Assembly (NCBI GenBank): GCA_025057675.1
Contig: JANWVE010000001.1
Span: 7,566-66,981, forward strand
Direction of reading: 5' to 3'
DNA from: Bacteroidia bacterium
GTDB taxonomy: Bacteria; Bacteroidota; Bacteroidia; JANWVE01
DNA: 59,416 nucleotides
Position numbers and translations under genes: made by a program
Shown: positions 662-59,416 of the stretch, one piece after another
Numbering within the stretch: position 1 is the stretch's first letter
How the letters are laid out: each line of letters starts with the position of its first letter
The notes under the pieces: model-generated
Seen by the model: the letters and a program-made list of their open reading frames with translations, nothing else
Databases searched by the model: none
What the model was told of the DNA's origin: nothing

Positions 662-666
662 TACTA

Positions 667-2628: not shown

Positions 2629-2636
2629 TATTTTTG
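2629..2636 (+). promoter_or_regulatory. Bacteroidota -7 element TATTTTTG
   Basis: TATTTTTG lies 4 nt before the ATG at 2641. This position rules out the in-frame GTG at 2626 as the start, because that codon lies upstream of the element. Confidence 0.6.
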
Positions 2637-2640
2637 TAAT

Positions 2641-3321: not shown

Positions 3322-3344
3322 AATTCGCCCTCAAAGTAAGATAG

Positions 3345-3830: not shown

Positions 3831-3951
3831 TATAGAATAAATAACTTCGCAAAGATATGAAAGATAAATACATGGGGAACAGGTTTTAAGTCATGCTTAC
3901 TTTTGGTACATTTGAGCGTTCTTGGAGTAGTTTGATTATTTTAAGAATATA

Positions 3952-4578: not shown

Positions 4579-4618
4579 TAATAAGACTTTGAAAAAATAA
4601 AAAGTTAAACTTCACATG

Positions 4619-7741: not shown

Positions 7742-7758
7742 AATAATACATAATAATA

Positions 7759-7766
7759 CAAAGGTA
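7759..7766 (-). promoter_or_regulatory. Bacteroidota -7 element TACCTTTG for the TPR-CHAT gene
   Basis: Read on the minus strand, TACCTTTG stands 17 nt before the ATG at 7741, leaving a short AT-rich leader. Confidence 0.55.
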
Positions 7767-7814
7767 CAGATGCAGAACTTTTTGCATATACGTAGAAGTA
7801 CGTATTCTGATTGA

Positions 7815-7879
7815 TTTTTTTGGCGTGTCCTCGTGGGTATACGCGCAGCGTAACGCCCACAAGGACACGCCCAAAAAAA
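7815..7879. repeat. Short palindrome form of the repeat (copy 4)
   Basis: Consists only of the tip: TTTTTTTGGCGTGTCC, an inner stem TCGTGGGT/GCCCACAA (two imperfect pairs) around a loop rich in GCGCAGCG, then GGACACGCCCAAAAAAA. No arm or AT core. Lies between two tandem - strand genes. Confidence 0.85.
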
Positions 7880-7959
7880 GAAATACTCTAAAAATAACCC
7901 TTTTTACCTTATATAGTCTGCATATCTAACTCAAATCAATGATGAGTTACTTTTTTATC

Positions 7960-9372
7960 TCATTTTTTCTTAGGCTCGTCATACTTTTTTATGTACAACA
8001 CCGATTGATGATTTTCCCAATGCATCCAAAAGGGGCGAACTCTACCCGCATAAGCCGATATGCCAATATAATCACCAAAAAAATCTATTTCATGAGGTGT
8101 AAAAGGTTTTTCAGAAATAAACTCATTAGTCCAAGTCTGACCACCATCGCGGGAGATAGCTAAAACTACTTCTGTGGCATTACCCTGCGTGCGGCTACGG
8201 TCATAGAATACACAATAAATATACCCTGTGGTAGGGTCAACAGACATCCATGTTAAAAATTGGTATCTTCTTGTTTTATCTTGATTGACACGAATAGGAC
8301 TGCTCCATGTATTCCCCCCATCTGTGGATTTGACGATAAATACATCTGTATTATCCGTACCATTTCTTGTATCTATCCAATTGATGTAAATATTGCCTCT
8401 ATAAGGACTATCAGGGGCAATATCACAAGCCATTACGGGCATGCCATTACTTCGGTCTAATCCAGGTATAGTTATATTCCATCCTCCTATAATGTTGGTC
8501 GCAACAATGGGTTTAGAAAATGTTTGTCCTCCGTCTAAGGATTTTACAAAGTAGATATTTTCATCACAAGCCCAAGAAACATATACTTCACCATTAGGAC
8601 CTACGGCAGGAACTGCACCTTCGTTAGTATGGTCATCATCTGTGGCACTACCTGCTTTGTTATCCAAACGAATGGGCTTGGAAAAGGTTTTACCTCTGTC
8701 TGTGGAACGAGAGAAAAGAATAATACTACTATCTTTTAAGTGCTTATATTTATTATCCCATCTTTTGATACCCCTGTAACGGCTAAACTGCGTCCAAGCT
8801 ACGTATATGTTATTTTGTGTTTGTGGGTTATCTGTCAAATCTGCGCAGGGATAGGCTTTATCTTCAAAAGGGATTAAACCTTTATGGGCTAAGACATCAG
8901 TGCTCTTTCCAGGAAATGTAAGTCCTTTATCATTAGATACTTGGCAATAAATTCCTGAGTCATCCCATCCGCCGATGTAAACCATATACACGTTACCTTC
9001 TTTATCTGCGGTTAGGGCAGGATCGCCGAGTACGTTTATGTTTTCATTACGAATACGATCGTATTTCCAAGTTTTACCATTATCAGGAGTAGTGAAGTAG
9101 AATAAAGGAACTTGAGCCCCCCCCGTCCAGTAATCAGGATTTGCAGGATTAACAACAATAGAAAGCTCTTCTAAACTCTTCGTTGGTCCTTGTATTTTGA
9201 TAAGGTCTTTATCCGCAATTTGAGTGATAGTAAAAGTGTTTTGTGTAGTGGTTTTGTATTCTTTTAGCTCGTTTTTAGGGGCTTTAGTACCTGTTTTATG
9301 AGATTGACAACCTATTAAAGTTAGCAAAATGTAAATTACAATACCTACCTTTGAATACATTATCAAGTTCAT
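7960..9372 (-). CDS. Sialidase/BNR-fold lipoprotein with Asp-box repeats
   Basis: 470 residues. A lipoprotein signal ending LTLIGC puts it at the cell envelope. The mature protein shows at least six Asp-box motifs (TPDNGKTWKYD, SNDKGLTFPGK, STDRGKTFSKP, SLDGGQTFSKP, STDGGNTWSSP, SRDGGQTWTNE), the hallmark of the sialidase-type six-bladed propeller. Asp-boxes are structural, and I could not place the Arg triad and Tyr/Glu of true sialidases, so the enzymatic activity is open; many such Bacteroidota proteins are annotated only as exo-alpha-sialidase or glycosyl hydrolase. The upstream TTG was rejected in favour of ATG 9372, 3 nt after TATCTTTG; ATG 9360 is also possible and gives a more compact signal peptide. 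Confidence 0.75.
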   Translation of the reverse strand: MNLIMYSKVGIVIYILLTLIGCQSHKTGTKAPKNELKEYKTTTQNTFTITQIADKDLIKIQGPTKSLEELSIVVNPANPDYWTGGAQVPLFYFTTPDNGKTWKYDRIRNENINVLGDPALTADKEGNVYMVYIGGWDDSGIYCQVSNDKGLTFPGKSTDVLAHKGLIPFEDKAYPCADLTDNPQTQNNIYVAWTQFSRYRGIKRWDNKYKHLKDSSIILFSRSTDRGKTFSKPIRLDNKAGSATDDDHTNEGAVPAVGPNGEVYVSWACDENIYFVKSLDGGQTFSKPIVATNIIGGWNITIPGLDRSNGMPVMACDIAPDSPYRGNIYINWIDTRNGTDNTDVFIVKSTDGGNTWSSPIRVNQDKTRRYQFLTWMSVDPTTGYIYCVFYDRSRTQGNATEVVLAISRDGGQTWTNEFISEKPFTPHEIDFFGDYIGISAYAGRVRPFWMHWENHQSVLYIKKYDEPKKK

Positions 9373-9375
9373 GTA

Positions 9376-9383
9376 CAAAGATA
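9376..9383 (-). promoter_or_regulatory. Bacteroidota -7 element TATCTTTG
   Basis: On the minus strand TATCTTTG lies 3 nt before ATG 9372 and 15 nt before the alternative ATG 9360 of the Asp-box lipoprotein. Confidence 0.5.
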
Positions 9384-9460
9384 TGAAATTTTAGGTTAGG
9401 TATTTAAGTATATTTCTTTTAGCAAAAACAGGCTCATTTTAGGAACAGTCAATTTTAATG

Positions 9461-10067
9461 TTTTTTTGGGCGTGTCCTTGACCACGTCTCGCTGCGCTCG
9501 TGTGGGCAAGGTCGGCGTGCTACGGGCTAACGGTGCTACGCCCCACCCCCTGGGTAAGAGTGAGCGTGTGAGCGAGGGGCTTCGCACCGTGCTACCGCAC
9601 GCCCTCCGCATGCCTCACGCATGCAGCAAGTAAGCTAATCCCACTTATACAAAACTTAATCTTGTAAGTGTCTGAAAATAAATACTAAACAAGGTTAAAA
9701 TGTATTTTTACATTGTAAATCATTGAAAATCAATACAAAATAAAGTAAAACTTCTATATTCAGGGTTAAAGGGTTAGAAGTCCATGTATTCAAGGTTTAA
9801 CATTGCAAATGCTTGAAAATCAATATAAAACAAGGCAAAGTAACAACGTTTGAAACAAGATAAAAAATTTTAACTTTGTAAATTCCTGACAATCAGCACT
9901 AAACAAGGTAAAGCAAAGATATGTCTAAAAACAAGGTAAAATGGCAAAAGACTGCTGCGTGAGGCATGCGGAGGGTGCGTGAGCAGTGCGGAGCGCAGCG
10001 AAGCACCGAAGCGATAGCGTAGCCCGCAGCACGCCGACCCGAAGCGCAGCGAGGGGCACGCCCAAAA
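9461..10067 (-). repeat. GC-arm/AT-core repeat, copy 5 (reverse core)
   Basis: Full-length copy in a divergent promoter gap. The long arm is on the left but lacks part of the CGCCCACC block. Arm hairpins CGTGC-GGTA-GCACG (left) and TGC-GTGA-GCA (right). Left tip stem TTGACCAC/GTGGGCAA has one mismatch. The right tip reads GGGGCACGCCC, with one base changed from GGGACACGCCC. Confidence 0.92.
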
Positions 10068-10209
10068 CTGAAATTATTTTTTAGAATAATATAGTATAGT
10101 ATATATCTGCGCATAAGTGGCAAAAAATTATGACCCAAAATTTGTAAGTTTAATAAATGAAGCATAAATTTACACCTAAAACTAATATTCCACCTTTCTA
10201 TGAACATCT

Positions 10210-10932
10210 ATGAACACCAAACCATATGCGAATTACCAGCTAGGTAGCAGAGGACTGCGATTCCTAGCATACATTATTGACAGTATTGTTTTATGGATTG
10301 TTATCGTGACTATTTCTCGAATTTTATCAGCAAATGCTATCTCATCAATTGACGAACTTATTCTTCTTAAAGAAACATCAGAGCCTGCTGTTTTAGAGAA
10401 GATACTTTCTCTTTTTAGGAAAATTCTGATTTATTACTTTGTTACGTACGTATGCGTACAATGGTTGTACGGATTTGTCTGTTATCCTAATTTGAGAGGG
10501 ACCTTAGGACATAGAATATTCAATTTGAGAGTTATAGGAAGTGATGGGCAGATACTTACAGGCGTAAAGGGTGGGAGTAGAGAGTTATTAAAAAGTCTAC
10601 CCACGATAATCTACATACTTGTGTTTCTGTTTAGTATTGCCAGTATGGAACGGCTAATTGCAAACATCGTACGTATAGAAGATTTAGAAAGGATTAGTCG
10701 CGAGGCTAATAATAACTTAAACTTAGCCTATAATTTTTTTGTCATAATCATTTATGCACTAACATTTGTGATATTCTTTTTGTGGAAAATTTGGCTAATT
10801 TTTAATAAAGACAAACAAAACATATATGACTTGATATTAAAAACGTACGTAGTTGTAGACCAAGACTCTGTAACTCGCCCACAAAACTCATACTTGGATA
10901 AGAATGATGAGAACCCTACTAGTATTACATAA
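10210..10932 (+). CDS. RDD-family integral membrane protein
   Basis: 240 residues with about four hydrophobic segments (roughly 16-38, 75-95, 132-152, 172-198). The RDD hallmarks are present: an N-terminal Arg before the first helix and an Asp within it (RFLAYIIDSIVLW), and the GTLGHRIFNLRVIGSDG segment after the second helix. RDD proteins sit in the inner membrane; some are sodium or compatible-solute transporters, most are uncharacterised. It ends 31 bp from the convergent coaE and is a single-gene unit. Confidence 0.75.
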   Translation: MNTKPYANYQLGSRGLRFLAYIIDSIVLWIVIVTISRILSANAISSIDELILLKETSEPAVLEKILSLFRKILIYYFVTYVCVQWLYGFVCYPNLRGTLGHRIFNLRVIGSDGQILTGVKGGSRELLKSLPTIIYILVFLFSIASMERLIANIVRIEDLERISREANNNLNLAYNFFVIIIYALTFVIFFLWKIWLIFNKDKQNIYDLILKTYVVVDQDSVTRPQNSYLDKNDENPTSIT

Positions 10933-10963
10933 GTGTGAACCTGGTAGGATAAACAGAATTATT

Positions 10964-11554
10964 TCAGCATTGTTTGTATATCCATTTCTCAAGACCCTCA
11001 AGCTGGGGGACTAACTCATGGATGCTATCGTTGTAAATAACGTAGTCTGCTTTATGTAGTTTGTGGTCCTCAGGGAGTTGTTTTTGCATACGAGCTAAAA
11101 TAGTTTCAGGTTCAGTTTTATCTCGCTTACATGCTCTTTCTAATCGGACCTTCATAGGGGCATAAATCACTACAATAGCATCTGTTTGGAGGTAGGATTC
11201 AGTTTCGTACATTAAGGCTGCTTCTTTAAGTACAAATGGTAAGTGTTTATACTGTTGTTTCCAACTTTCAAAATGCTCAAAAACAACAGGATGGACAAGT
11301 TTGTTGAGAGTGGCTAATTGATTACTATCTTGAAAAACAATACTAGCCAGTTTTGCTGTGTTAAGTGTGTTATTTTCGTAAATATCTGATCCAAAGTGTG
11401 TTATCAATTTAGATCTCAAATTTAGGTCATGGTTCATGAGCCATTTAGCTTGAACATCTGCATTGTATACTGGGGCAGAGCGGTCTTCAAACCATTTACA
11501 TACTGTAGTTTTACCTGAACCTATTCCACCTGTAATACCTATTACTCTGACCAT
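10964..11554 (-). CDS. coaE: Dephospho-CoA kinase
   Basis: Catalyses the last step of CoA synthesis, ATP-dependent phosphorylation of dephospho-CoA at the ribose 3'-OH. 196 residues, normal length for the family. P-loop GGIGSGKTT at about 9-17; the family's YNADVQAKWLM and KEAALMYE segments and the lid region ACKRDKTEPETILARMQKQLP follow in the expected order. The start ATG lies 1 nt after the stop of a 58-codon upstream gene, so the two are very probably translationally coupled. The window also holds a type II pantothenate kinase, the first step of the same pathway, but unlinked. Confidence 0.95.
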   Translation of the reverse strand: MVRVIGITGGIGSGKTTVCKWFEDRSAPVYNADVQAKWLMNHDLNLRSKLITHFGSDIYENNTLNTAKLASIVFQDSNQLATLNKLVHPVVFEHFESWKQQYKHLPFVLKEAALMYETESYLQTDAIVVIYAPMKVRLERACKRDKTEPETILARMQKQLPEDHKLHKADYVIYNDSIHELVPQLEGLEKWIYKQC

Positions 11555-11555
11555 T

Positions 11556-11732
11556 TCATTTTAGGTGAAACTCCTTACGTATTTGGTTAATAATAAACTT
11601 TTTAGCGTTGTTGAAGTTAGCTTCTCCTGACCCATCGAAAAAAGCTTTTAATTTTTGATACTCTTCTGGACGCTCTGCCTTAAAAGCTTCGGGGTTTATT
11701 TTTTTCTTTTTCAAATACTCTTCGAAGGTCAT
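11556..11732 (-). CDS. 58-residue protein coupled to coaE
   Basis: Short ORF beginning MTFEEYLKKKKINPEAFKAE and ending IRKEFHLK. It is charged, probably helical and soluble (repeated Lys/Glu, one GSGEANF turn), with no signal peptide or cysteine. Its TGA is separated from the coaE ATG by one base, which is the main reason to believe it is real. Composition matches the neighbouring coding DNA and not the repeats. I do not recognise the family; a CoA-pathway or stress-related role would be a guess from position only. Confidence 0.7.
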   Translation of the reverse strand: MTFEEYLKKKKINPEAFKAERPEEYQKLKAFFDGSGEANFNNAKKFIINQIRKEFHLK

Positions 11733-11872
11733 ATTGTGTAGTTTAATTTAGCCGCACAAAGTTATAACAAAATTGTAATACAAAAAACTACTTGGAGGGC
11801 ATGTTTTTAAGTTAGTTTTGTATTTAACCCAAGGAGATGGTTAGGGTTGATTTTATTAAAAATCGGGGTTCA

Positions 11873-12512
11873 ATTTTTTTGGGCGTGTCCTTGCCCACGT
11901 CTCGCTGCGCTTGTGTGGGCAAGGTCGGCGTGCTGCGGGCTAACGGTGCTGCGCCCCACACGCCCACCCCCTGGACAAGGGTTTGAACGTGGGCGAGGGG
12001 CTTCGCACCAAGCCTGACGGCTTGCCCTCCGCATGCCTCACGCAGCAGCAAGCATACTAATCCCACTTATGCAAATCTTAACCTTGTAAGTACCTGAAAA
12101 TGACCATCAAACAAGATATAATTCAATTTTAACCTTGTAAATCATTGAAAATGAACTCAAAATAAGGTAAAGCTTGTGTACTCAGGGTTAAGGGAGTACA
12201 GCAAATCCGTGTATTCAAGGTTTAACCTTGTAACTACTTGAAAATCAATACAAAACAGGATAAAGCGAAGGGAATTCAGACAAGATAAAAAAATTTAATC
12301 TTGTAAGTGTTTGATAATGAGCATCAAACAAGGTAAAGGATGCGTATGTATAAAAACAAGGTAAAACACCCAAAAGCTGCTGCGTGAGGCATGCGGAGGG
12401 TGCGTCAGCAGTGCGGAGCGCAGCGTAGCACCGAAGCGAAGCGCAGCCCGCAGCACGCCGACCTTGTGGGCATGAGCAAAGCGAAACGCCCACAAGGACA
12501 CGCCCAAAAAAA
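11873..12512 (-). repeat. GC-arm/AT-core repeat, copy 6 (reverse core)
   Basis: Longest copy (640 bp), between two - strand genes. Both tips carry an inner hairpin, but of different types: TTGCCCAC/GTGGGCAA at the left and TTGTGGGC/GCCCACAA at the right. Arm hairpins CAAGCC-GTCA-GGCTTG (left) and TGC-GTCA-GCA (right). Confidence 0.93.
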
Positions 12513-12541
12513 TACAATCAGACTATTAAATCTCATACAAC

Positions 12542-13696
12542 CTATAACCATGACTTGTGATAGTCAGGGTCTTCTATGCTTAAAGCGGCTTTTGTAATTT
12601 GAAGGGGTTTGAAAGGGTCAATCATCACGGCAAGCTCTTCTGTACCCTTCTGCCCAATACTTTTTTCTATTGTACCTGGATGAGGTCCGTGAGGAATGCC
12701 CGCAGGATGTAAAGTAATTTGTCCTTTTTTGACGCTTTTTCTACTCATAAAATCTCCATCTACATAATAGAGAACCTCATCCGAGTCAATGTTACTATGA
12801 TGATACGGCGCGGGAATGGCTAAGGGATGATAATCATATAAACGAGGTACAAAAGAACAAATAACAAAACCATCGCCTTCAAAAGTTTGATGTATAGGAG
12901 GAGGCATGTGTACTCTGCCCGTAATCGGTTCAAAATCATGAATGGAAAAAATGAAAGGATAAAAATATCCATCCCAACCAATAGCATCAAAGGGGTGGTA
13001 CACATACGTGTAAGGATATATCCAACCTTGCTTTTTGATAAGGATTAAAAATTCTCCTTTTTCATCGTGTGTTTTAAGGTTCTGGGGAGTTTTGATATCT
13101 CTTTGACAAAACGGTGCATGCTCCATGAGTTGCCCCACTTCGTTAAGATAACGCTTAGGAAAACGTATAGGACTGAATGCTTCTACGTAAAAAATACGGT
13201 TATTTTCATCGTTAAATTGTATTTGATAAATAACTCCACGAGGAATAACAACATAATCGCCGTACTTGAATTCTAATTCTCCGTAAATGGTCGTTATTTT
13301 GCCCGAGCCTTGGTGGATAAACAAAACTTCATCTGCGTCAGCATTTTTATAGAAGTATTCGGTCATGCTTTTACGAGGTGCAGCACTACCAATGTGTAAA
13401 TGATGATTAACCAAAAGAGTTCTTCTGCTTTTGAGAAAATCATCTTCGGGTTGTAGGGTAAAAGTTTGAAAGCTATGATGCATCATGTTATTTGCAATGG
13501 CTATTTCGGGAATTACGCTGTAAGGTTCTCCAACCTGCTTAACCACTGTGGGGGGATGTACATGATACACCAAAGAATATAAACTAGAAAAACCCCGAGT
13601 GCTGACTAACTCCTCACCATATAAAGTACCATCAGGTTTGCGGAACTGTGTATGTCTTTTGGGTGGTACTTTACCTAACTGAACATAATGCGGCAT
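12542..13696 (-). CDS. hmgA: Homogentisate 1,2-dioxygenase (bacterial short type)
   Basis: Likely opens the ring of homogentisate to maleylacetoacetate in tyrosine/phenylalanine breakdown. 384 residues, the length of the bacterial homogentisate dioxygenase-like group (about 385) and shorter than the human enzyme. Cupin architecture: N-terminal segment HYVQLGKVPPKRHTQFRKPD, GKITTIYGELEFKYGDYVVIPRG cupin strands at about 155-180, the likely iron site MPPPIHQTFEGDGF and the C-terminal HHSNIDSDEVLYYVDGDF and GIPHGPHPG segments. Metal ligands are inferred from motif position. No maleylacetoacetate isomerase or 4-hydroxyphenylpyruvate dioxygenase is adjacent, so the pathway assignment rests on family only; an FAH-family gene lies 28 kb away. 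Confidence 0.8.
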   Translation of the reverse strand: MPHYVQLGKVPPKRHTQFRKPDGTLYGEELVSTRGFSSLYSLVYHVHPPTVVKQVGEPYSVIPEIAIANNMMHHSFQTFTLQPEDDFLKSRRTLLVNHHLHIGSAAPRKSMTEYFYKNADADEVLFIHQGSGKITTIYGELEFKYGDYVVIPRGVIYQIQFNDENNRIFYVEAFSPIRFPKRYLNEVGQLMEHAPFCQRDIKTPQNLKTHDEKGEFLILIKKQGWIYPYTYVYHPFDAIGWDGYFYPFIFSIHDFEPITGRVHMPPPIHQTFEGDGFVICSFVPRLYDYHPLAIPAPYHHSNIDSDEVLYYVDGDFMSRKSVKKGQITLHPAGIPHGPHPGTIEKSIGQKGTEELAVMIDPFKPLQITKAALSIEDPDYHKSWL

Positions 13697-13751: not shown

Positions 13752-14951
13752 CTATTGTTTTATACCGACGATTTTTCGGATTTTTTGCCACTCTGCTTCT
13801 GCGGAAAGTTCCTTGGCCGCCAAAGCTGATCTTTTTTTATACTGCTCTATTTCCTGAACAGTTATGTTTTTAATGGTATGAGCAATATTTTTAACATCTC
13901 CATCCACAATAACCCCATTTTGATACTTTTTTAAAAGCTTCTCTACTTCATAGGTGTGAGACATAATCAAGGCTAATTTAGCTTGAATAAACTCAAACAC
14001 TTTATTAGGCAAACAATTAGCATTATTGTAGTTGTTTTTTTCAATTAAATAAAGTCCGATATCATAGACCGCAATGGTTGGAATAATTTGAGAAAAAGGT
14101 ACAGGGGGATGAAAAAAAACATTTTTAACACCCCTAGCTAAACTGTACAAAGCAGCAGCGTAGTTATCATCAATAACTTTAAGATAAAAATGGATTTCAT
14201 AGTTACTTGGCAAATATCGCATTACTTCTATTAGGCTTTCTAAATTTCTATTAGGTATAGCAACGCCGTGATGTACCATCCGTATTATATCAGGATTAGT
14301 GGGACTAGGAGGGCTATCGAAATAAGGTTTAGCGTTGAATATTACGAGGGGTTTTTGGATTAGTTGAAGTTCTTTTTCAAAACGCATAGCGATATTCTCT
14401 CCTACAGTCATGAACACATCAATACATTTTAAGTACTCATCGATAAGATATTTGCGAAAAGGATATTCTTTTTCTATCCAGGCAGACGCCTCATTTTCTT
14501 CTAAAAAATACTCATGTGCATCAAAAATGAGTTTAGTATTTTGCTTTTTGAGAAAGGCAGCTATGGGTAGAGTATCTATATCATTTGCAATGATACAATC
14601 AAAAGTGTATTGATTTTTTATTTTGTTTAATTCGTTCACTCGTATATCTTGCCAGTATCTCCGCTGATATAGATTTTTGTATTTATGCCTTACTATCAAG
14701 CGTAAAATAGCTTTGTACAACAGAATAAATAAGGTTAAGAACTTGCGAATCAAAAAGGGATATCCATAGTGAAAAATATATCTGCGTGTGAGTGAGGCAA
14801 AATTGAAAAAACCTTTGCAAGGAATTTTTTTTACACTATTTGCCATAAAATAAATAGAGGCATGGTCTTTTAGTGCCTCCCACTGGTTGAGTACGCGTGG
14901 GTCGGTATCCACATCGTTATTGACAATGATAAGTATCTTCATGTCTTTCAT
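13752..14951 (-). CDS. GT-B glycosyltransferase (GT4-like)
   Basis: 399 residues. The N-terminal Rossmann start MKILIIVNNDVDTDPRVLNQ, the DIDTLPIAAFL and FDAHEYFLEE segments of the acceptor domain, and a C-terminal NKVFEFIQAKLALIMS donor-binding stretch match family 4-type sugar transferases. A hydrophobic amphipathic region at about 65-95 may touch the membrane. It probably adds a sugar to a polysaccharide or lipid carrier; donor and acceptor are unknown. ATG 14942 is an alternative start giving MKILIIVNN. Neighbours are hmgA downstream (55 bp) and a divergent ABC permease, neither informative. Confidence 0.8.
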   Translation of the reverse strand: MKDMKILIIVNNDVDTDPRVLNQWEALKDHASIYFMANSVKKIPCKGFFNFASLTRRYIFHYGYPFLIRKFLTLFILLYKAILRLIVRHKYKNLYQRRYWQDIRVNELNKIKNQYTFDCIIANDIDTLPIAAFLKKQNTKLIFDAHEYFLEENEASAWIEKEYPFRKYLIDEYLKCIDVFMTVGENIAMRFEKELQLIQKPLVIFNAKPYFDSPPSPTNPDIIRMVHHGVAIPNRNLESLIEVMRYLPSNYEIHFYLKVIDDNYAAALYSLARGVKNVFFHPPVPFSQIIPTIAVYDIGLYLIEKNNYNNANCLPNKVFEFIQAKLALIMSHTYEVEKLLKKYQNGVIVDGDVKNIAHTIKNITVQEIEQYKKRSALAAKELSAEAEWQKIRKIVGIKQ

Positions 14952-15044
14952 CTCTATCTTCGCAAATTAACCAAAAAAACGCTGAATTTTGAACACTACT
15001 TTACACTTTACACAAAGAGTGGTCCTAAAGAAGTTAGGTTTTAA

Positions 15045-15109
15045 TTTTTTGGGCGTGTCCTTGTGGGCATAAGCGAAAGTGTAACGCTCACAAGGACACG
15101 CCCAAAAAA
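15045..15109. repeat. Short palindrome form of the repeat (copy 7)
   Basis: TTTTTTGGGCGTGTCC, inner stem TTGTGGGC/GCTCACAA (one G-U-type pair), GGACACGCCCAAAAAA. No arms or core. Sits in a divergent gap; the remaining 168 bp up to 15278 hold only the next gene's promoter. Confidence 0.88.
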
Positions 15110-15265
15110 TTAACATAACATAAAAACATACATAAATGCCCTCTAATACACTTAAACAAAAATTAATGTCACATATAATTTGAAAAATAATAACTTCACT
15201 TCAAACTATTCCCTTCCTTCACTTCTTAGGAAATAGCTATCTACTTGAAATTACCCCGTATCTCG

Positions 15266-15273
15266 TATTTTTG
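15266..15273 (+). promoter_or_regulatory. Bacteroidota promoter: TATTTTTG with upstream TTG
   Basis: TATTTTTG stands 4 nt before the ATG at 15278; a TTG at 15245-15247 is 18 nt upstream, a plausible -33 element. The spacing implies a leaderless mRNA and excludes the in-frame TTG at 15245 as a start codon. Confidence 0.6.
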
Positions 15274-15277
15274 TATC

Positions 15278-16612
15278 ATGAATTTTTCATTGCTCAAACT
15301 CATCATTCAAAGAGAATATCTCAATAAAGTTAGAAATAAAGTATTTATTATTAGCACTTTATTAGCCCCCCTAGGATTAGTTGCTATCATCGTAGCTCAA
15401 ATTATAGCTACCGCATACACTAAACCTGAACCCCTAAACCTCGGAATTGTAGATGAAACCACTCTAATTTCTCAAAATCTACCTCGTAAAGAAAAAAACT
15501 TTACATTTACCCCTTTACAAGGCGATATAAACAAAAACCTAACATACATACAAGGTAAAAATCCAAAATTTAATGGCATTATCTATATCCCTAAACAGTT
15601 TTCTATCAAAGGAGGCGACCTTATTTACTATGGCAAAAACACATTAAGTGTGGGAAATCATAATAAATTAGAAGATTTATTCATCCAAATTCTTAAAAAT
15701 CAGCAGCTCATTCAAAGCGGAATCAGACCCTCACAATTAGATAGCATTCAAGCCAAGGTTAATCTTTCAAGTGTAGAAGTAAGCGATAAAGGAGATATTA
15801 AGCAAACTAATAGTTTTATTCGTACGTTTGTTGGTTTTGGGGCAAGCCTGCTGTTATACATGTTTTTGTTCATTTATGGAGCCATAGTGTTAAGAATCGT
15901 GATAGAGGAAAAAACAAATCGTGTAATAGAAGTATTGCTCACTTGTGTAAAACCTATTGATCTTTTAATCAGCAAAATTATTGCTGTTTTGTTAGTGGGC
16001 TTGACACAAATTGGGATTTGGTTAGGTTTGATAGTAATCCTAGGTAGTATCATAAGCCCAATGATAACGAAAAACACTACTGAAAAACGTACTCGTGCAG
16101 AACAGCAAGTCGTTGAACAACAAAGTATCGACCCTGCATCTATGACTATTCAAAATTCAAAACCTAATTTATTGCAAGCTTTGTATTCTACTTCCCCTAT
16201 GATTTTATTATACTTTGTATTATACTTCATAGGTGGGTATTTATTTTACGGCTCTTTATTTGCTGCTATAGGTGCCGCAGTAGATAATGAGTCAGATACA
16301 CAGTATTTACAACTTCCTATTACTTTACCGGTTATCATTCCTATTTTATTTACAGGGCATATTTTAGAAAATCCTAATAGTGGGCTTTCAAGATTCTTAT
16401 CATACTTTCCTATGACTTCTCCTATGACAATGCTGACACGCTTTAACTCAGGTAAGGTAGAATGGTGGGAAATAACCTTGTCTTTGATACTCTTGTATTT
16501 ATCTGTTTTTGCCGCTTTGTGGATAGCTGCAAAAATTTATCGTGTGGGAATTTTAATGTATGGTAAAAAAGCTTCTTACAAGGAGCTGTGGAAATGGCTA
16601 AAAATGTCATGA
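15278..16612 (+). CDS. ABC-2 type permease (NatB-like)
   Basis: 444 residues. An N-terminal membrane helix (IISTLLAPLGLVAIIVAQIIA) is followed by a ~140-residue extracytoplasmic domain and then about five further helices. The signature NRVIEVLLTCVKPIDLLISKIIAVLLVGL, with the loop ending in the ABC-2 membrane block, fits NatB-type sodium-exporter permeases (COG1668). The ATPase subunit (NatA) is not in the window, so the substrate is unknown. Its stop overlaps the next start as ATGA at 16609. Confidence 0.8.
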   Translation: MNFSLLKLIIQREYLNKVRNKVFIISTLLAPLGLVAIIVAQIIATAYTKPEPLNLGIVDETTLISQNLPRKEKNFTFTPLQGDINKNLTYIQGKNPKFNGIIYIPKQFSIKGGDLIYYGKNTLSVGNHNKLEDLFIQILKNQQLIQSGIRPSQLDSIQAKVNLSSVEVSDKGDIKQTNSFIRTFVGFGASLLLYMFLFIYGAIVLRIVIEEKTNRVIEVLLTCVKPIDLLISKIIAVLLVGLTQIGIWLGLIVILGSIISPMITKNTTEKRTRAEQQVVEQQSIDPASMTIQNSKPNLLQALYSTSPMILLYFVLYFIGGYLFYGSLFAAIGAAVDNESDTQYLQLPITLPVIIPILFTGHILENPNSGLSRFLSYFPMTSPMTMLTRFNSGKVEWWEITLSLILLYLSVFAALWIAAKIYRVGILMYGKKASYKELWKWLKMS

Positions 16613-25158: not shown

Positions 25159-26772
25159 CTATTTGAGATATATTTTAAGGGTTTTTCCTGCATAAATACG
25201 AGTGTCATTTAATCCATTCCATGCTTGGAGTTCCTTTACTGTTACCTTAAATTGCACCGCAATTTTTCCTAAGGTATCCCCAGGCTGAATAGTGTAAATG
25301 TACTCTTTTTGTCCGTGGGGTATAATAATAGGTTGCGTACTTGGCTTAGACTTGTCTTTGGCTATTTTATCTAAACTTTCCTTTTTAATGGAGTCAATAG
25401 GTAAAATGTATGAATTCTGTGAAGGATTGTTTTGTAACCAACGTATAGTGTTCTTAAAGGCATCTGCTAAAAATTCCCCTTTTAGTTGATAACCTCTGGG
25501 AGTAAGATGAACCATATCTCTACTCATTAAACCTGCTTGATTCCACTCTTTAGCTACACCATATCCGCCCGAAATCCAATACCAATCGTAGATAATGCAA
25601 TGCTCTTCTTGAGCAATTTTGTGGATGAGATCTACAAATTTAACCGCTGATTTGAGAGATACATTTCTCTTTTTCATATCTTGAGTAGTTGTGAGCATGA
25701 TGACGGCATTAGGACACGCTGCTCGTATATTCTCAATAATTTTTTTGATTTCAGTTTCTAAAGATGTGTCAATTTTATCTTTGTATAGATAGTCGTTTGT
25801 GCCGTAGTCTAATATAACTAAGTTAGGGGAAAAAACAGGTAATTGCTGCATAAACAAATCTTGCAACAACACTGAGAGAAACCGAGATGCCCCTACCCCT
25901 GCATTATGCAATAATAAGCCTTTATTTTCTGCACTTTCTAAACTCATTCCGTAAAATTCAAAATGGTCTTGAATGGGCGATGTTTTAATAGTGCGCAAAG
26001 TAATAGTTTTGGAAGTAAAGTTATCTAATGATATAGTAATTTCAGGTTTTTCGGGATAAGAGAATGTTTTTACAAGAATTTTTTTATCGCCTGTTTCTAT
26101 CTCAAAATCAAAACAAGTAGTGTCTTTTTTGACAAGTAGTTTTAGAAGTGTGTAGTTTTTAATATTTTCTCTGTTGAGCGTGAAAGATAAAGTAGCCCCC
26201 TCCTCTTGGGTGTGCACAGTCATCCCAGATACACCCAAAGTTAATTTAGGTTTGAGTACAATACATCGTGCCGCGGTCCAATTTCCTGTACATGATGTAG
26301 TAACCGCACAAGAAGGGTAAGTCTTTACCGCACTGTAATTGACCATTATACCTTGTCCGCCATCACCTAATACTTTAATGAGTTCCTCTCGTAACCGTTC
26401 AGGATAATAACCTGATTGTAAATGCGAGTCGCCCATGTGAAGAATGACCAGCTTTTGTTTGTCTACATTTTGCCATGCTTGGTACAAGGGTTCAATATCT
26501 TTTCGGTCATAAAATTGAATGTAGTTGAGTTGAGGGTACATCCATGAGTATTTTTCTTGTGCGCGTACCTGCAAAGAGAAAGGAAAAAGAATACTGAATA
26601 AAGTTATAGCCGTGTGTACCTGCGTGAGGTGCATGACGCATGCCGTTAGGCAGTGCGGAGCGTAGCGAAGCACCGCAGCGAATGCGGAGTGCAGAATGCA
26701 CCGACCCAAGCGCAGCGCAGGGACACGCCCAAAAATAAAATATAACCCTACAAATGTTTTAACCTGCTTCAT
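25159..26772 (-). CDS. SGNH/GDSL hydrolase with C-terminal LysM; repeat arm in signal region
   Basis: Periplasmic or surface SGNH esterase/acetyltransferase-like protein. SGNH blocks: VILHMGDSHLQSGYY (Ser116 from ATG 26772), VILDYGTNDYLY, and the catalytic pair in DMVHLTPRGYQ; the C-terminal ~45 residues (YTIQPGDTLGKIAVQF, VKELQAWNGLNDTRIYAGKTL) are a LysM peptidoglycan-binding domain. The ATG at 26772 is 2 nt after the stop of the previous gene and is probably the ancestral start, but residues ~14-50 are encoded by a repeat arm (26621-26735) that splits the signal peptide. ATG 26634, supplied by the repeat itself, gives MHLTQVHTAITLFSILFPF as a normal signal peptide and may be the working start (491 residues). 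Confidence 0.82.
   Translation of the reverse strand: MKQVKTFVGLYFIFGRVPALRLGRCILHSAFAAVLRYAPHCLTACVMHLTQVHTAITLFSILFPFSLQVRAQEKYSWMYPQLNYIQFYDRKDIEPLYQAWQNVDKQKLVILHMGDSHLQSGYYPERLREELIKVLGDGGQGIMVNYSAVKTYPSCAVTTSCTGNWTAARCIVLKPKLTLGVSGMTVHTQEEGATLSFTLNRENIKNYTLLKLLVKKDTTCFDFEIETGDKKILVKTFSYPEKPEITISLDNFTSKTITLRTIKTSPIQDHFEFYGMSLESAENKGLLLHNAGVGASRFLSVLLQDLFMQQLPVFSPNLVILDYGTNDYLYKDKIDTSLETEIKKIIENIRAACPNAVIMLTTTQDMKKRNVSLKSAVKFVDLIHKIAQEEHCIIYDWYWISGGYGVAKEWNQAGLMSRDMVHLTPRGYQLKGEFLADAFKNTIRWLQNNPSQNSYILPIDSIKKESLDKIAKDKSKPSTQPIIIPHGQKEYIYTIQPGDTLGKIAVQFKVTVKELQAWNGLNDTRIYAGKTLKIYLK
26621..26735 (-). repeat. Single-arm repeat fragment inside a coding region (copy 11)
   Basis: One GC arm (115 bp) from GCGTGAGG to GGGACACGCCC, without core or second arm. 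Hairpin TGCC-GTTA-GGCA, and a closing pair GGTGCAT/ATGCACC that differs in both strands from the GGGCTAT/ATAGCCC of other arms. It lies in frame within the SGNH gene. Confidence 0.88.
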
Positions 26773-48222: not shown

Positions 48223-48845
48223 TTTTTTTGGGCGTGTCCCTTCGCTTCGCTCGGGTCGGCGTGCTACGGGCTACGCTTCGCTTCGGTGCTTTGCTGCGCT
48301 TCGCACCGTGCTAACGCACGCCCTCCGCATGCCTCACGCAGCAGCATTTTGACATTTTACCTTTTTTATACCCGCTTTTGTCTTACCTTTTTTAACATTG
48401 ATTATCAATTACTTACAAGGTAAAAATTTTTACCTTGTTTTATGTATAGTCGTTTTTATCTTGTTTTAGATTGATTTTCAAGCATTTACAAGGTTAAACT
48501 TTGAATACATGGACTTATTACTACTCTTTAACCCTTGATACACAATCTTTACTTTATTTTGAATTGATTTTCAAGCATTTACAAGGTAAAAATATATTTT
48601 AACCTTGTTTAGAGTTCTTTTTCAGGGACTTACAAAGTTACATTTTGTATAAATGGAATTAGCATACTTGCTGCATGCGTGAGGCATGCGGAGGGCAAGC
48701 CATCAGGCTTGGTGCGAAGCCCCTCGCACACTCTTTCACTCTTGCCCAGGGGGTGGGCGGGTGGGGCGTAGCACCGTTAGCCCGTAGCACGCCGACCTTG
48801 CCCACACGAGCGTAGCGAGATGTGGGCAAGGACACGCCCAAAAAA
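48223..48845 (+). repeat. GC-arm/AT-core repeat, copy 17 (forward core)
   Basis: Divergent gap. Arm hairpins CGTGC-GTTA-GCACG (left, a stem otherwise mostly in long arms) and CAAGCC-ATCA-GGCTTG (right). Right tip stem TTGCCCAC/GTGGGCAA. Confidence 0.92.
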
Positions 48846-49543: not shown

Positions 49544-49588
49544 TTTGGGTGCGTCCCTCACTAGCGCGGCGAGAGACGCACTCAAAAA
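49544..49588. repeat. Short palindrome form of the repeat, diverged (copy 18)
   Basis: TTTGGGTGCGTCCCTC and GAGAGACGCACTCAAA pair except for one G-U-type pair and one mismatch, though the stem differs from the standard GGGCGTGTCC/GGACACGCCC. It lies in a convergent gap of 132 bp. Confidence 0.7.
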
Positions 49589-52245: not shown

Positions 52246-52299
52246 TTTTTTGGGCGTGTCCCTCGCTGCGCGTATGCCCACAAGGACACGCCCAAAAAA
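52246..52299. repeat. Short palindrome form of the repeat, hybrid (copy 19)
   Basis: GGGCGTGTCC and GGACACGCCC are intact, but the inside joins two tip types: CTCGCTGCGCG (simple tip) on the left and GCCCACAA (GTGGGC-type) on the right, which do not pair with each other. Confidence 0.85.
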
Positions 52300-53564: not shown

Positions 53565-54136
53565 TTTTGGGCGTGTCCCTTCGCTGCGCTTCGGGTCGGG
53601 CTATTCCGCACTACGCTGGCGCTCGGTGCTTCGCTTCTCTCCGCACTGCCTAACGGCATGCTCCATAGCCCTCACGCAAGGGGTATTTTGATGTTTTACT
53701 TTATTTATACACGTATCTTTGCTTTATCTTGTTTTAGTTTGATTGTCAAATACTTACAAGACTAAAATTTTTTACTTTGTTTTAACTGTGTTTGTTTTAC
53801 CTTGTTTCATATTCATTTTCAAGTATTTGCAAGGTTAAACCTTGAATACATGGACTTTACACCATCCTTTAACCCTGAACGTTGAGATTTTACTTTTTTT
53901 TAGATTGATTTTCAATTATTTATAAGATTAAAATGTGTTTTTATCTTGTTTATTGTTCATTTTGAGGTACTTACAAGGTTAAGGTTTGAACAAATGGACT
54001 CAGTTTACGTTACAGTTTGCGTGAGGCATGCGGAGGGTGGGCGTTAGCCCAGTGCGAAGCGCAGCGAAGCACCGAAGCGAAAGCGTAGCCCGTAGCACGC
54101 CGACCCGAAGCGCAGCGAAGGGACACGCCCAAAAAT
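53565..54136 (+). repeat. GC-arm/AT-core repeat, copy 20 (forward core)
   Basis: Between two + strand genes. Arm hairpins TGCC-GTTA-GGCA (left) and TGGGC-GTTA-GCCCA (right), the latter a stem seen nowhere else in the window. Left arm closing pair GGGCTAT/ATAGCCC. The right arm lacks the GGGGGTGGGCGGG block. Confidence 0.93.
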
Positions 54137-54165: not shown

Positions 54166-54173
54166 TAACTTTG
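54166..54173 (+). promoter_or_regulatory. Bacteroidota -7 element TAACTTTG
   Basis: Lies 6 nt before ATG 54180 and contains the in-frame TTG at 54171, which therefore is not the start. Confidence 0.55.
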
Positions 54174-54179
54174 CAAAAT

Positions 54180-57100
54180 ATGAAGATAAATCTATGGCTT
54201 CGTTGGGCAATCGTATTGATAGGACTGGCAGTGGTAATGTTTATACACAAAAAACAAAAAGAAACCCTCAAAAATATAAGTAAAATAGATAAAAATACCG
54301 TCCAAAATGTATTCACTACGTTAGAAATAAAAGGATTTCACTTGCTTAGTAAATTATCTCAACAATCTCGGTTAGATACATTACTTCTACCCTATCATCA
54401 CGCACATTTGTTTGAAAAAATTAACACTATTCAAAATGAAGAGCATTTCTACATCTATGTATTAGACTACAATCACACCTTGATAGCCTGGAATACAAAC
54501 GAGTATACCCCCACTAACGCTGAATGGGATACACAAATCGGGTTAAAAAAACCTTTCACATTTTTTAAAAAAAATATTGTTTATTACAGCCTATTCGATG
54601 AGATTTCTAACCCACAGCAAGGAATAGTAGGCTATGTATTTGTAGCTATCCCATTATGTAAAAGATACAGTATTGAAAATGCATATATTCAATCTTCCTC
54701 TATTTTTGACACTAAATCTATTCAGTTTGACCTTACTTCGGATACCCTTAACACTTCCGCTATTCCAATATACAATCAGCAAAAAGAATATGTTACAAGC
54801 ATATACCTGCGAGCAAAAACTAACCAAATTTTAGATATTGAATACTACTTTGTAATAAGTGTTTTTGCATGGCTTACTTTGTTAATTTTGGTAATACAAC
54901 ATACTATCAAACAGATAATCTCATCACCCTTTTTACGCACTTTAATTTTTACAATCACTATCATTTTAGTGCGCTACATAATGGTATATGCTCACTTTCC
55001 ACAAAAGGATTATCCTATACCTCTTTTCTCGCCTACCTATTATGCATCCAATATTTGGAACGCATCTCTGGGCGATTTACTGATTAACACAATACTTGGA
55101 TTATATCTTACTTTTCAATGGTACTATACCTTATCACAAAAAATTTCACTCCTCTGCCCATTGATACAAAGAAAAAAATATATAAAGATACTTTTCTCAA
55201 TACTGGTGTATCTTGTTTTTGTATTAAGCACATTTATCTACCAGCAGATTGTGTACTCAGTTATTATACATTCTAACATACGTTTTGATTTTACCTATAA
55301 CCCGCAAATAGATATCTATACGGGTATTGCAGTTCTATGCCTAATGTTGATTTTTATATGCTTTTTTTTAGTGCAATACGGTTTAATTGGATTTTGGATA
55401 GAATTATTTGATTCCAAACACGTGATGATACTTGTTTTAACTCACATATTTGTAGGAGTGGTTAATTTTTTTATTAGCAAGATAGAGAATTATGTACTTT
55501 GGTGGATTATACCTTCTTATTTTGTAGCATTTACATACATTCGGTATTATACAGAGTACAAAGAAAAACTTTTTTTTAGCTTCAATCACAGCTTAGCATT
55601 AGTGGTTGTTTTTGGTATTAACATGGCAGCGTATCTTCGTTTTTACACAGAGGAGAGACATAAACAAGAACAAGTTCAGTTTGCTTTACGTAAGGCCAAG
55701 CAGCATGATGAAATTTTAGAAAGTTTATTCAGTGAAATAAGCCAACAAATTAAAAAAGACCCTTTTGTTCAGCGTTTTATTGCTGATAGCACAGCTTATA
55801 CACCCGCACTCATTCAAAAAATAGAGCGTTTAATTACTAATATCACCCAATACTATACTTGCGACATTGCAATCACAGACAATAAAAATAAAATATTATA
55901 CAACCCTAAAAGCACTTTACTTCGTGTAAATGAAAAAACAGTACTCAAAAATGAGTATCAAATTCAAAAAGAACTGTATTTTATTCCATATAATAGAGAG
56001 TTCATAGAAAATTTATACGTTGCTATCATTCCGTTTGCACAAAAAGATAGAACTATAAATGTACATATTGAATTTATACCGAATACAGTATATCGTAATG
56101 GCTTATATCCAAACTTTTTAGTAGATAAAAAGCAGCAAAAATTTTTACAACGTGCTTCTAAATACAGCTATGCCGTTTATTATAGTAATCAATTAGTGAA
56201 TATGCAGGGTAATTATGATTACAGTTTTCAAAACAATATCTGTAAAACACATTTAGCAGAGTTACAAGGTATTTGGCAGAGAGATAAAAACTATTTACAC
56301 TACATATACTCCCCAGAGACACAAAAGATTATTATTGTAACCCGAAGGATGCCTAACATTATTGAGCTATTTGCTTTGCACTCTTATTTGATATATGCTT
56401 GGGCGATATTATTCACAATCTTAAGTGCATTTTATTGGGTAAAATACTATATCAGAAGAAAGAAATTACGTTTTAACTTGTATTACCGTACTAAAATTCA
56501 AATTTACTTGCTACTAATGAGCCTCATTCCTTTATTCATCATTAGTGTAATATCCATTCCATTTATTAAAAAAAGTTATTTTGAGGAGGTTCAAAGGGAA
56601 TTGAAGCGCCAGACACAAGCAGTACTCTCTGCTATTCAAGCTAAGAATTTTGTAGAAAATGATTTTGTGCAATACTCTTCAACATTACAAAATTTAGTTG
56701 CGGATATTGCTACCCTTACGCAAAGTGATATAAATTTATATTCTAAACAAGGCAAATTAGTAGTTTCTACGCAGCCCAAAATTTTTGAGTTAGGATTACT
56801 TTCTACGATTATTAACCCTAATGCATATTTTCACTTGAACATGCAATACCAACAGGAGTATATCCAAGACGAGCAAATGGGCAGACTTTCTTATATCAGT
56901 ATTTATGTTCCAGTGATTGACAAAAATCTTAACATGATAGGTATTCTGAACATGCCTTACATTACTCGGCAGGGGCAATTGGAGGGAGAAGTAGCGCGTT
57001 TTCTTTCTTATCTTATCAGTATTTATGTTGTTATTTTGTTGTTGTTATCGGGTTTAGCGTTGTTATTATCTCGTACTTTGACCAAGCCGTTGAATGTTCT

Positions 57101-57920
57101 TAGACAGCGCATTGAGCAAATCCGATTAGGGAAGAGAAATGAAAAGATGGAATGGAAATCTAATGATGAGATTGGTGCATTAGTAAATGCATACAATCAG
57201 ATGGTGGAGAAGCTAGCGCTTAGTGAGAGAAAATTAGCCAGTTCTGAACGGGAAGCAGCTTGGCGAGAAATGGCACGTCAGATAGCTCATGAAATAAAAA
57301 ATCCGCTTACACCAATGAAGTTGAGCATACAACATCTCTTACGCGCTCAACGCGATAACCACCCTAATCTACCCACTATGATGCAAAAAGTAGCTCAAAC
57401 TTTACTTACAGAAATAGAGTCGTTAAATGAAATTGCTACCTCTTTTTCTAACTTTGCTAAAATCCAACAACAAGAACCCGAGGTTATTGATGTTCAAAAC
57501 CTACTCAAACAGAACATTGCCCTGTATCAAAGTCATGAGGAGGTTACTTTTCAAGTTGATTTACATCAGAAGCCTTGTTTTATTTACGCTGATGCTTCTG
57601 CAATATCCCGTGCCTTCCAAAATCTTATCAAAAATGCCATTCAAGCTATGGAAAGGAGTGAAAAAAAGATTTTATCTATTACGTTAAATAAAGAAAGAAA
57701 TCAGATTCATGTAATCATCAAAGACACGGGATGCGGTATAGAACCGATTCATATAGAGCGTATTTTTGAACCTAATTTTACCACAAAAAGTGCGGGTACG
57801 GGATTAGGATTAGCCATAAGTAAGAGGGCAATTGAAAACGCAGGAGGGACTATTATTGTGCAAAGCGCACTTAATATAGGTACAACATTTTTTATTACTT
57901 TACCTGAGCATGAGTTGTAA
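54180..57920 (+). CDS. Large NtrY-like sensor histidine kinase
   Basis: 1246 residues. One helix at the N-terminus (about 9-25), a ~190-residue periplasmic domain, a central block of about seven helices (~220-480), a second extracytoplasmic domain, another helix near 745, a third extracytoplasmic domain (~790-930), a helix at ~940-965, then HAMP (TLTKPLNVLRQRIEQIRLGKR), HisKA with His1037 in ARQIAHEIKNPLTP, and HATPase_c with N-box NLIKNAIQAME, G1 DTGCGIEP, and FTTKSAGTGLGLAISK. The KNPLTPM H-box is NtrY-type. No response regulator is adjacent. The signal sensed is unknown. Confidence 0.85.
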   Translation: MKINLWLRWAIVLIGLAVVMFIHKKQKETLKNISKIDKNTVQNVFTTLEIKGFHLLSKLSQQSRLDTLLLPYHHAHLFEKINTIQNEEHFYIYVLDYNHTLIAWNTNEYTPTNAEWDTQIGLKKPFTFFKKNIVYYSLFDEISNPQQGIVGYVFVAIPLCKRYSIENAYIQSSSIFDTKSIQFDLTSDTLNTSAIPIYNQQKEYVTSIYLRAKTNQILDIEYYFVISVFAWLTLLILVIQHTIKQIISSPFLRTLIFTITIILVRYIMVYAHFPQKDYPIPLFSPTYYASNIWNASLGDLLINTILGLYLTFQWYYTLSQKISLLCPLIQRKKYIKILFSILVYLVFVLSTFIYQQIVYSVIIHSNIRFDFTYNPQIDIYTGIAVLCLMLIFICFFLVQYGLIGFWIELFDSKHVMILVLTHIFVGVVNFFISKIENYVLWWIIPSYFVAFTYIRYYTEYKEKLFFSFNHSLALVVVFGINMAAYLRFYTEERHKQEQVQFALRKAKQHDEILESLFSEISQQIKKDPFVQRFIADSTAYTPALIQKIERLITNITQYYTCDIAITDNKNKILYNPKSTLLRVNEKTVLKNEYQIQKELYFIPYNREFIENLYVAIIPFAQKDRTINVHIEFIPNTVYRNGLYPNFLVDKKQQKFLQRASKYSYAVYYSNQLVNMQGNYDYSFQNNICKTHLAELQGIWQRDKNYLHYIYSPETQKIIIVTRRMPNIIELFALHSYLIYAWAILFTILSAFYWVKYYIRRKKLRFNLYYRTKIQIYLLLMSLIPLFIISVISIPFIKKSYFEEVQRELKRQTQAVLSAIQAKNFVENDFVQYSSTLQNLVADIATLTQSDINLYSKQGKLVVSTQPKIFELGLLSTIINPNAYFHLNMQYQQEYIQDEQMGRLSYISIYVPVIDKNLNMIGILNMPYITRQGQLEGEVARFLSYLISIYVVILLLLSGLALLLSRTLTKPLNVLRQRIEQIRLGKRNEKMEWKSNDEIGALVNAYNQMVEKLALSERKLASSEREAAWREMARQIAHEIKNPLTPMKLSIQHLLRAQRDNHPNLPTMMQKVAQTLLTEIESLNEIATSFSNFAKIQQQEPEVIDVQNLLKQNIALYQSHEEVTFQVDLHQKPCFIYADASAISRAFQNLIKNAIQAMERSEKKILSITLNKERNQIHVIIKDTGCGIEPIHIERIFEPNFTTKSAGTGLGLAISKRAIENAGGTIIVQSALNIGTTFFITLPEHEL

Positions 57921-57929
57921 AGGCAATTT

Positions 57930-57994
57930 GTTTTTTGGGTGTGTCCTTGTGAGTGTTTCACCTGGCTCATGCCCACAAGGACACACCCAGAAAT
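57930..57994. repeat. Short palindrome form of the repeat with compensated tips (copy 21)
   Basis: Both tips share a paired change: GGGTGTGTCC at the left and GGACACACCC at the right, against GGGCGTGTCC/GGACACGCCC elsewhere. Inner stem TTGTGAGT/GCCCACAA is partly mispaired. Lies in a convergent gap of 85 bp. Confidence 0.85.
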
Positions 57995-58005
57995 TAAATT
58001 ACTAA

Positions 58006-59416
58006 TTAAATTACTAAAATATCCATAAACTCATGCACAGAAGTAGCCACTAACCTCTCATAATCCAACACAAGGTCTAAAATATGCTGCTGCTGTTTGT
58101 GCGGATAGCGCTTTGCTAAATTTGTCTTGAATTTTTTAAGCAATTCAGGAATTCCCTCTTCACGCCTGCGCTTGTGTCCAATCGGATATTCTACCACTAC
58201 CTCATCCAATATCGTACCATCATTAAGCTCTACTGTAAGGGCATTAGCAATAGAGCGTTTGTCAGGGTCGTGGTAGTCTTTTGTAAATTGAGGATCTTCT
58301 ACACAGGTAATTTTATCTCTCAAGATGTCAATTCTTGGGTCAGCGGCTACGTGGTCTTCATAGTCTTCAGAAGTTAGTCGTCCATAGAGTAAGGGAATGG
58401 CTACAATATACTGTATGCAATGGTCCCTATCTGCGGGATTGTTTAATTTGCCTTTTTTATCAATGATGCGAATAGCAGCTTCATGCGTGCGGATAGTAAT
58501 TTTTTTAATGTCCTCTGCGGTTTTGTTGAGAGATTTGAGCTTGTGGTGAATAATCATAGCTGCTTCGGCAGCAGTTTGTCCGTGAAATTCAGCAGGGAAT
58601 GAGATTTTGAGCAGTACATTCTCCATGACGTACGAACCAAAAGCACGTTGGAATTTGAAAGAATTACCTCTAAATAGCACATCGTAAAAGCCCCAAGTTT
58701 TTGCTGTTAGCACAGAAGGATAGCCCATTTCGCCTGTTTTAGCAATCAGAGCTAAGCGTACGGCACGAGAAGTAGCATCGCCTGCTGCCCAAGATTTACG
58801 GCTGCCTGTATTAGGTGAATGGCGATAGGTACGCAAAGGATGCCCATCTACAAATACATGCGAAATGGCGTTGATGAGTTCCTCTTGCGTTAGCCCTAGT
58901 AACTTACCTGCCACAGCCGTAGAAGCTAACTTGACTAATATCACATGGTCTAATCCTACTCGGTTAAAAGCATTCTCCAAAGCAAACACACCTTGTATCT
59001 CATACGCACGTATCATAGCATCTAACACGTCTTTAACAACAAAAGGTTTTTTACCTTGGGCTACGGCTTCGCGTGATAGCCAGTCTGCCACAGCTAAAAT
59101 AGCACCCAGATTGTCTGAAGGGTGTCCCCATTCGGCAGCTAACCAAGTGTCATTGTAATCTAGCCAACGAATGATCGTGCCTATGTTAAAAGCGGCTTGT
59201 ACAGGGTCTAATTGAAACTGTGTACCGAATACTCTTGCACCATTTGGGACAATTGTACCTTTGACAATAGGTCCGAGTAATTTAGTACATTCAGGATAAG
59301 ACAAAGCTTCCAAACCGCAACCAATAGAATCTAATAAACAATAGTGTGCGGTTTTCCAAGCTAAATCACTTTGAATTTGATAGTTAAGTACGTAGTTGGC
59401 TACGTCAACCAAAACC
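58006..59416 (-). CDS. prpD: 2-methylcitrate dehydratase (MmgE/PrpD family), N-terminus cut by window edge
   Basis: Dehydrates 2-methylcitrate in the propionate-degrading methylcitrate cycle. 470 codons are visible, running past the right edge; family members are about 483 residues and have roughly 15 more before [12 protein letters not shown], so the TTG at 59412 is not taken as the start. Family segments: ARYCLLDS-type [26 protein letters not shown]-like [61 protein letters not shown] and [10 protein letters not shown]. No prpC or prpB is inside the window; they could lie beyond the edge. Confidence 0.9.

Follow-up and report, generated by a model that had tools for sequence, protein, structure and literature searches.

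Matched tip changes in the short forms of an abundant intergenic repeat family of a Bacteroidia bacterium

Introduction

Matched changes in the two arms of a hairpin are usually taken as proof of structural selection. A short palindrome in the genome of a Bacteroidia bacterium (lineage JANWVE01; assembly GCA_025057675.1), both tips of which carry the same change, raises the question of how such a match comes about: by selection on pairing, by two independent hits, or by the copying of one arm onto the other. The window analysed here is the whole stretch of 59,416 nucleotides around it (contig JANWVE010000001.1, positions 7,566 to 66,981 of the forward strand), and it was compared with its own genome (G000) and with two sister species of the same genus (G001 and G002). 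The assembly comprises 336 contigs and is 91% complete, some mis-assembly of long repeats is possible, and the genes referred to are mechanical open reading frames (ORFs).

The short palindrome and its setting

The short form, including its T-run and A-run flanks, occupies 57931-57994 (elements are given without strand throughout). Its left tip (57937-57946) reads GGGTGTGTCC and its right tip (57979-57988) reads GGACACACCC, with TTTTTT before the former and AGAAAT after the latter. Members of the family usually have GGGCGTGTCC and GGACACGCCC as tips, and the same change is found on both sides of 57937-57988 (GGGCGTGTCC to GGGTGTGTCC), namely C to T on one arm and the partner G to A on the other, at tip position 4. 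A sequence-only reading of this DNA had claimed that both tips of a palindrome at 57930-57994 changed alike (GGGTGTGTCC and GGACACACCC against GGGCGTGTCC and GGACACGCCC), and this is borne out. Both halves of the matched change sit at the CpG of the tip. Between the tips lies an inner B1-type hairpin (TTGTGAGT...GCCCACAA; 57947-57978), in the stem of which, TTGTGAGT against TTGTGGGC, two of eight pairs are unmatched, a point absent from the sequence-only reading. Folded as DNA, 57931-57994 reaches -22.5 kcal/mol (z -7.8), and none of 200 shuffles did equally well.

The palindrome sits in the 85-base gap left by two convergent genes, whose stop codons are at 57920 and 58006. The two genes are a histidine kinase gene on the plus strand (54171-57920), which ends 16 bases before the left tip, and a MmgE/PrpD family gene on the minus strand (58006-59412), which ends 17 bases past the right tip. 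An intrinsic terminator, that is a G+C-rich hairpin followed by a T-run, was ruled out here, as a scan of 57800-58200 found none and, whichever strand is read, the T-run comes ahead of the hairpin, which is the wrong side.

The PrpD gene shows 96% DNA identity to its copy in G002 (L136, G002:C4:10001-30000, 14910-16322), whereas the median identity of the other matched proteins in the sequenced parts compared is 58-74%. The likeness of the two genomes at this gene reaches as far as the boundary of the element; G000 has a short form at this place and G002 a long one. The elements may act as junctions for gene exchange.

The parent family of long intergenic elements

The family to which the palindrome belongs is built on the plan of a T-run, GGGCGTGTCC, usually about 600 bp, GGACACGCCC and an A-run. 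Inside a long element the order is T-run, tip, end hairpin, conserved segment and AT-rich middle, and then the same in reverse. Two types of end hairpin occur, A (CCCTTCGCTGCGCTTCGGG and similar) and B (one of TTGTGGGC, TTGCCCAC, TTGCTTGC and TTGCACAC, paired with its matching arm). The element at 1926-2536 is typical, with an A-type left end, an AT-rich middle and a B-type right end, and the genome contains numerous copies with 81-85% identity to it. Others lie at 53569-54130 (the nearest long element to the left of 57931-57994), at 48230-48839 (adjoining a short form at 49547) and at 9468-10063 (about 600 bp, apparently non-coding). Besides five short forms and one lone end, the window as a whole contains 15 long elements that are complete and measure about 400-625 bp, and few ORFs of at least 100 codons overlap these long elements. 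Tip-like 10-mers with up to two mismatches number 53 in the window, against 13.6 expected, a count reached by none of 100 shuffles. The lone end, a right end with the left part absent, is found at 26630-26730 within a region of overlapping ORF calls.

In a 694-kb sample of G000, made up of the window and 39 further stretches, 189 elements take up 14.3% of the sequence, a share that may run slightly high as the contigs of the stretches were chosen for good matches to one element. By size, 16 measure at most 130 bp, 10 are 131-400 bp and 163 are longer; one stretch of 981 bases already contained in the window (L156) was left out of the element, tip, hairpin, gap, flank and gene-pair counts. Exact copies of TTTGGGCGTGTCC number 1277 in G000, 109 in G002 and 21 in G001 (reversed control 0), from which we estimate that G000 holds roughly 700 elements. 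None lies inside a called ORF of its own genome. With genes taken as ORFs of at least 100 codons, elements occupy 52 of 76 convergent gaps, 37 of 75 divergent gaps and 81 of 276 tandem gaps, and the median distance of long elements is 47 bases to a gene 3′ end and 103 to a 5′ end. The end types of 172 long elements are AB in 122, AA in 43 and BB in 7. The end segment as a whole gave no strong fold in two examples (z 0.94 and -1.1).

In the B-type hairpins of long elements (n = 141) four stem positions show two to four pair types each. The arm classes of these end hairpins are distinct, as seen at 11881-12505 of the window and in long elements generally, and an arm (TTGTGGGC, TTGCCCAC, TTGCTTGC or TTGCACAC) is exchanged as a block together with its partner, intermediates being nearly absent and 98.9% of the pairs Watson-Crick.

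Decay of the short forms

Short forms differ from long elements in how well their sequence is kept. Of 172 elements of 300-900 bp, 143 have both tips intact, but only 4 of 16 short forms do, some tip change being present in 29 and 12, respectively. Similarly, 42 of 216 inner-stem pairs (19%) in 27 B-type short forms are not Watson-Crick, compared with 16 of 1410 (1%) in the 141 B-type hairpins of long elements, a set for which an intact tip (which favours young copies) was required and an intact hairpin was not. The short forms are thus a decaying class, and 57931-57994 is most plausibly a member of it. Among the mismatches of the long-element hairpins G-T (4 of 1410) and A-C (5 of 1410) are equally rare, which gives no indication that one RNA strand is under selection.

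The other short forms of the window vary in the same respects. The one at 7821-7872 is changed at tip position 1 on one side only, that at 15051-15103 has unchanged tips and one unmatched inner pair, and that at 52252-52293 has unchanged tips around an A-type/B-type hybrid inner part. The short form at 49547-49583, with an A-type inner part, was described by the sequence-only reading (as 49544-49588) as altered differently yet still largely self-complementary. This description holds: GGGTGCGTC (49547-49555) faces GACGCACTC (49575-49583), tip positions 4 and 6 carry matched changes, positions 2 and 10 carry unmatched ones, and the fold has z -3.3. The element caller drops forms with more than three changed tip positions in all, and this one therefore enters no count.

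Matched and one-sided tip changes across the genome

Short forms were collected with a pattern that requires TTTT before one tip and in which tip positions 1, 4, 7 and 8 may each take any of the observed alternatives, independently of the partner tip. In the whole of G000 it returned 61 rows, which are 37 distinct short forms (control 0); in G002 it found 7 and in G001 none. As a class, short forms are rare. One further form with a matched change at position 4 (L161, 11166-11218) stands outside the 37, having another change beyond positions 1, 4, 7 and 8.

Both tips are unchanged in 18 of the 37. The remaining tip pairs include 5 double-sided changes (position 1 twice; positions 4, 7 and 8 once each) and 19 one-sided ones. 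When arms are dealt randomly among elements a mean of 1.38 doubles results (P = 0.0048), and if each arm retains its count of changes while positions are drawn by frequency the mean is 2.08 (P = 0.020). Pooling G000 with G002 gives 7 doubles and 22 one-sided changes, with 1.8-2.6 doubles expected (P = 0.00045 and 0.0026); G002 alone, with 2 doubles and 3 one-sided changes, shows no excess (P = 0.20 and 0.35). Under a looser rule the 694-kb sample yields 16 short forms with 3 doubles and 16 one-sided changes, which is not clearly above independence. A second pattern, in which the outer six bases are fixed, adds one more double among the matches listed, a transversion of C-G to A-T at position 10 (site C68).

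The excess of matched changes is real but modest, resting on few events (5 of 37 forms) with copies treated as independent, and most changes are unmatched. As the doubles exceed the independent expectation, something besides independent hits makes some of the matched pairs. The sequence-only reading had held that short forms are not simply decaying at random, and had named mostly uncompensated changes genome-wide as what would refute it. The genome-wide comparison bears the claim out in part: doubles lie above chance by either calculation, which supports decay that is not purely random, but one-sided changes outnumber them 19 to 5 (22 to 7 with G002), and this is the refuting outcome that had been named.

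Origin of the short forms and of their matched tips

The palindrome at 57931-57994 has a single terminal hairpin enclosed by the tips and the T/A-run flanks of the family, and lacks about 500 bases of the long-element interior. We somewhat favour the explanation that it is a single-hairpin member of the high-copy intergenic family, that short forms are decaying by-products, and that matched tips come from copying between the arms. Under this explanation the decay of short forms would be slow; one arm would be copied onto the other by a fold-back template switch (quasi-palindrome correction), either at the origin of the short form or later; and subsequent decay would add the more numerous one-sided changes.

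The hairpin classes of the 37 short forms bear on the route. They are BB in 27, AA in 6 (one of them shifted and B-like) and A/B hybrids in 4. A deletion joining both end hairpins of a long element was rejected as the main route, since hybrids make up 4 of 37 short forms whereas 122 of 172 long elements are AB. The scarcity of hybrids implies that a short form is one end hairpin plus a second, matching tip, which could come about by a deletion from the base of a hairpin to the opposite tip, or by a tip being copied across the hairpin. The former tells against copying to some extent, as a simple deletion from one hairpin's base to the opposite tip would also give short forms of a single class. 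One sign of template switching is an inverted loop, and the 30 commonest loop types in the hairpins of long elements include none. The flanks of 16 short forms are not mirrored beyond the T/A-run (0.349 against 0.346 in shuffled sequence), so any fold-back must end within that run. In favour of copying, arm-to-arm transfer would explain why variant tips come in pairs, matched variants being very rare in G000 long elements, and the double C-G to A-T at position 10 counts for it because it is a transversion, without a wobble intermediate. Template switching has been reported to produce compensatory changes of several bases (PMC8794818).

Pure neutral decay, in which the same CpG was hit independently in each of the two tips, is the alternative that has to be taken most seriously, although we think it rather unlikely for the short forms as a whole. 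At the palindrome itself two independent hits at the CpG of 57937 and 57988 are quite possible: position 4 shows 1 double and 5 one-sided changes in the 37 G000 forms, where about 0.33 doubles are expected (calculated by hand), and it is the most often changed position among the 16 short forms of the 694-kb sample. The match at 57931-57994 taken alone is therefore weak evidence, being about what two independent CpG hits give. One-sided changes, which account for 19 of 24 changed pairs, also fit neutral decay. What it fails to explain are the pooled doubles above independence (P = 0.005-0.02 in G000 and lower with G002), the matched transversion at position 10 and the two matched changes in 49547-49583.

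The sequence-only reading had offered selection on pairing or inverted gene conversion, and of the two selection is the less likely. That selection keeps the short forms foldable, as a DNA hairpin or as RNA, would account for the excess of doubles and for the strong predicted folds, and the long hairpins do vary in sequence while 1394 of 1410 pairs remain Watson-Crick, with up to four pair types per position. Nevertheless, a fifth of the inner pairs of short forms (the 19% above) are unpaired, their tip changes are mostly one-sided, and the side of the T-run and the empty scan exclude a terminator, which makes selection improbable. It is more improbable still that the short form is a deletion product of a long element whose both tips were already altered. 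Some tip change is carried by 29 of 172 long elements, and 2 of 15 long elements in G002 have the same change at both tips; in G000, however, a matched variant at both tips occurs in 1 of 172 elements of 300-900 bp, at position 8, and in none at position 4. Copying between arms, not sustained selection, is our best reading of the matched tips.

Relatives and likeness to known systems

A whole-element query found matches in 5 of 40 genomes, namely the three of the genus (G000, G001 and G002) and two with single hits of 30-50 bases. The G001 copies read (e.g., L147 and L151) are half elements, with the gene 3′ end on the tip side in 10 of 11; the stretches examined contain 12 half elements in G001 and 29 in G002. 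None of 15 conserved neighbouring gene pairs (G001, G002 and L055 parts) spans a G000 element, and a same-site comparison is possible beside the PrpD gene only. Of 395 Bacteroidota genomes, 20 (G000 among them) contain a pattern of the tip and end hairpin (GGGCGT-NN-CCC-hairpin-GGGTCGGGCT), whereas the reversed control is present in 2. Of ten such loci taken from outside the genus one reads as coding (L176) and nine as non-coding, and in 8 of these nine the Flavo-1 RNA motif (RF01705) lies beside the pattern at E ≤ 0.1, exceeding the gathering score in one. The Flavo-1-bearing repeat of these Bacteroidia (L177-L185) exceeds the Rfam model, having an extra hairpin and a GGGCGT tip beside it, and, judged by eye, its two ends could pair through GCGTKA and TMACGC.

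Flavo-1 and its Flavobacteria repeats share with the present family, as a pattern only, the end motif around a variable hairpin. In the window Rfam gave no match at the gathering threshold, to RF01705 or any other family; RF01705 was absent from the hits at E ≤ 10 for positions 1-12600 and gave no match at E ≤ 1 to two end segments of the subtype nearest Flavo-1. A sequence model of the genus elements had no match to the Flavobacteria loci, leaving homology unsupported by profile. Two facing halves, an AT-rich middle and a short form are seen in the genus only, unlike in the Flavo-1 repeats. Because the window elements have no Flavo-1 match and the genus model no match to those loci, the relation would therefore appear, from sequence comparison, to be one of likeness at the ends, not of membership. 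In Flavobacterium psychrophilum, Flavo-1 hits are reported in both the sense and the antisense direction, and many fall outside transcripts (PMC9723704), as would be expected of a DNA element.

REP sequences and REPIN/BIME arrays resemble the family in being many, intergenic and palindromic, although the elements here are ten times longer than REP sequences. The REP-associated Y1 transposase (PF01797) had no match in the bacterium's own genome (91% complete), while 5 of 14 control genomes were positive, and by eye the GTAG/CGTC tag of REP sequences (tag names after PMC3733652) is absent at the consensus tip GGGCGTGTCC. MITEs likewise have terminal inverted repeats and hundreds of copies, and they lack coding capacity, as the present elements may too; unlike in MITEs, a target-site duplication is absent here, with no exact adjacent repeat beside the tips in 188 of 189 elements and one of 2 bases in the remaining element, and the T-run and A-run flanks are inverted, not direct. 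No description of the parent family was found in the open-access literature searched by its tip, by the Flavobacteria end strings and by Bacteroidetes intergenic repeats.

Significance

The parent family is a more unusual feature than the short palindrome. It is apparently non-coding, it occupies most convergent gaps, and it makes up about 14% of the sequence examined, which is unusual for a bacterium. A doubtful, speculative extension is that the family is a protein-less DNA-level element whose end hairpins must pair while their sequence is free, that it might spread and keep its copies alike through single-strand hairpin copying, and that short forms would be misfires of that process. The long elements, with near-perfect and sequence-diverse hairpins, and the decaying short ones, with their excess of matched changes, can be compared within one genome. 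With more strains, the family would measure what share of "compensatory" change is due to mutation by copying alone.
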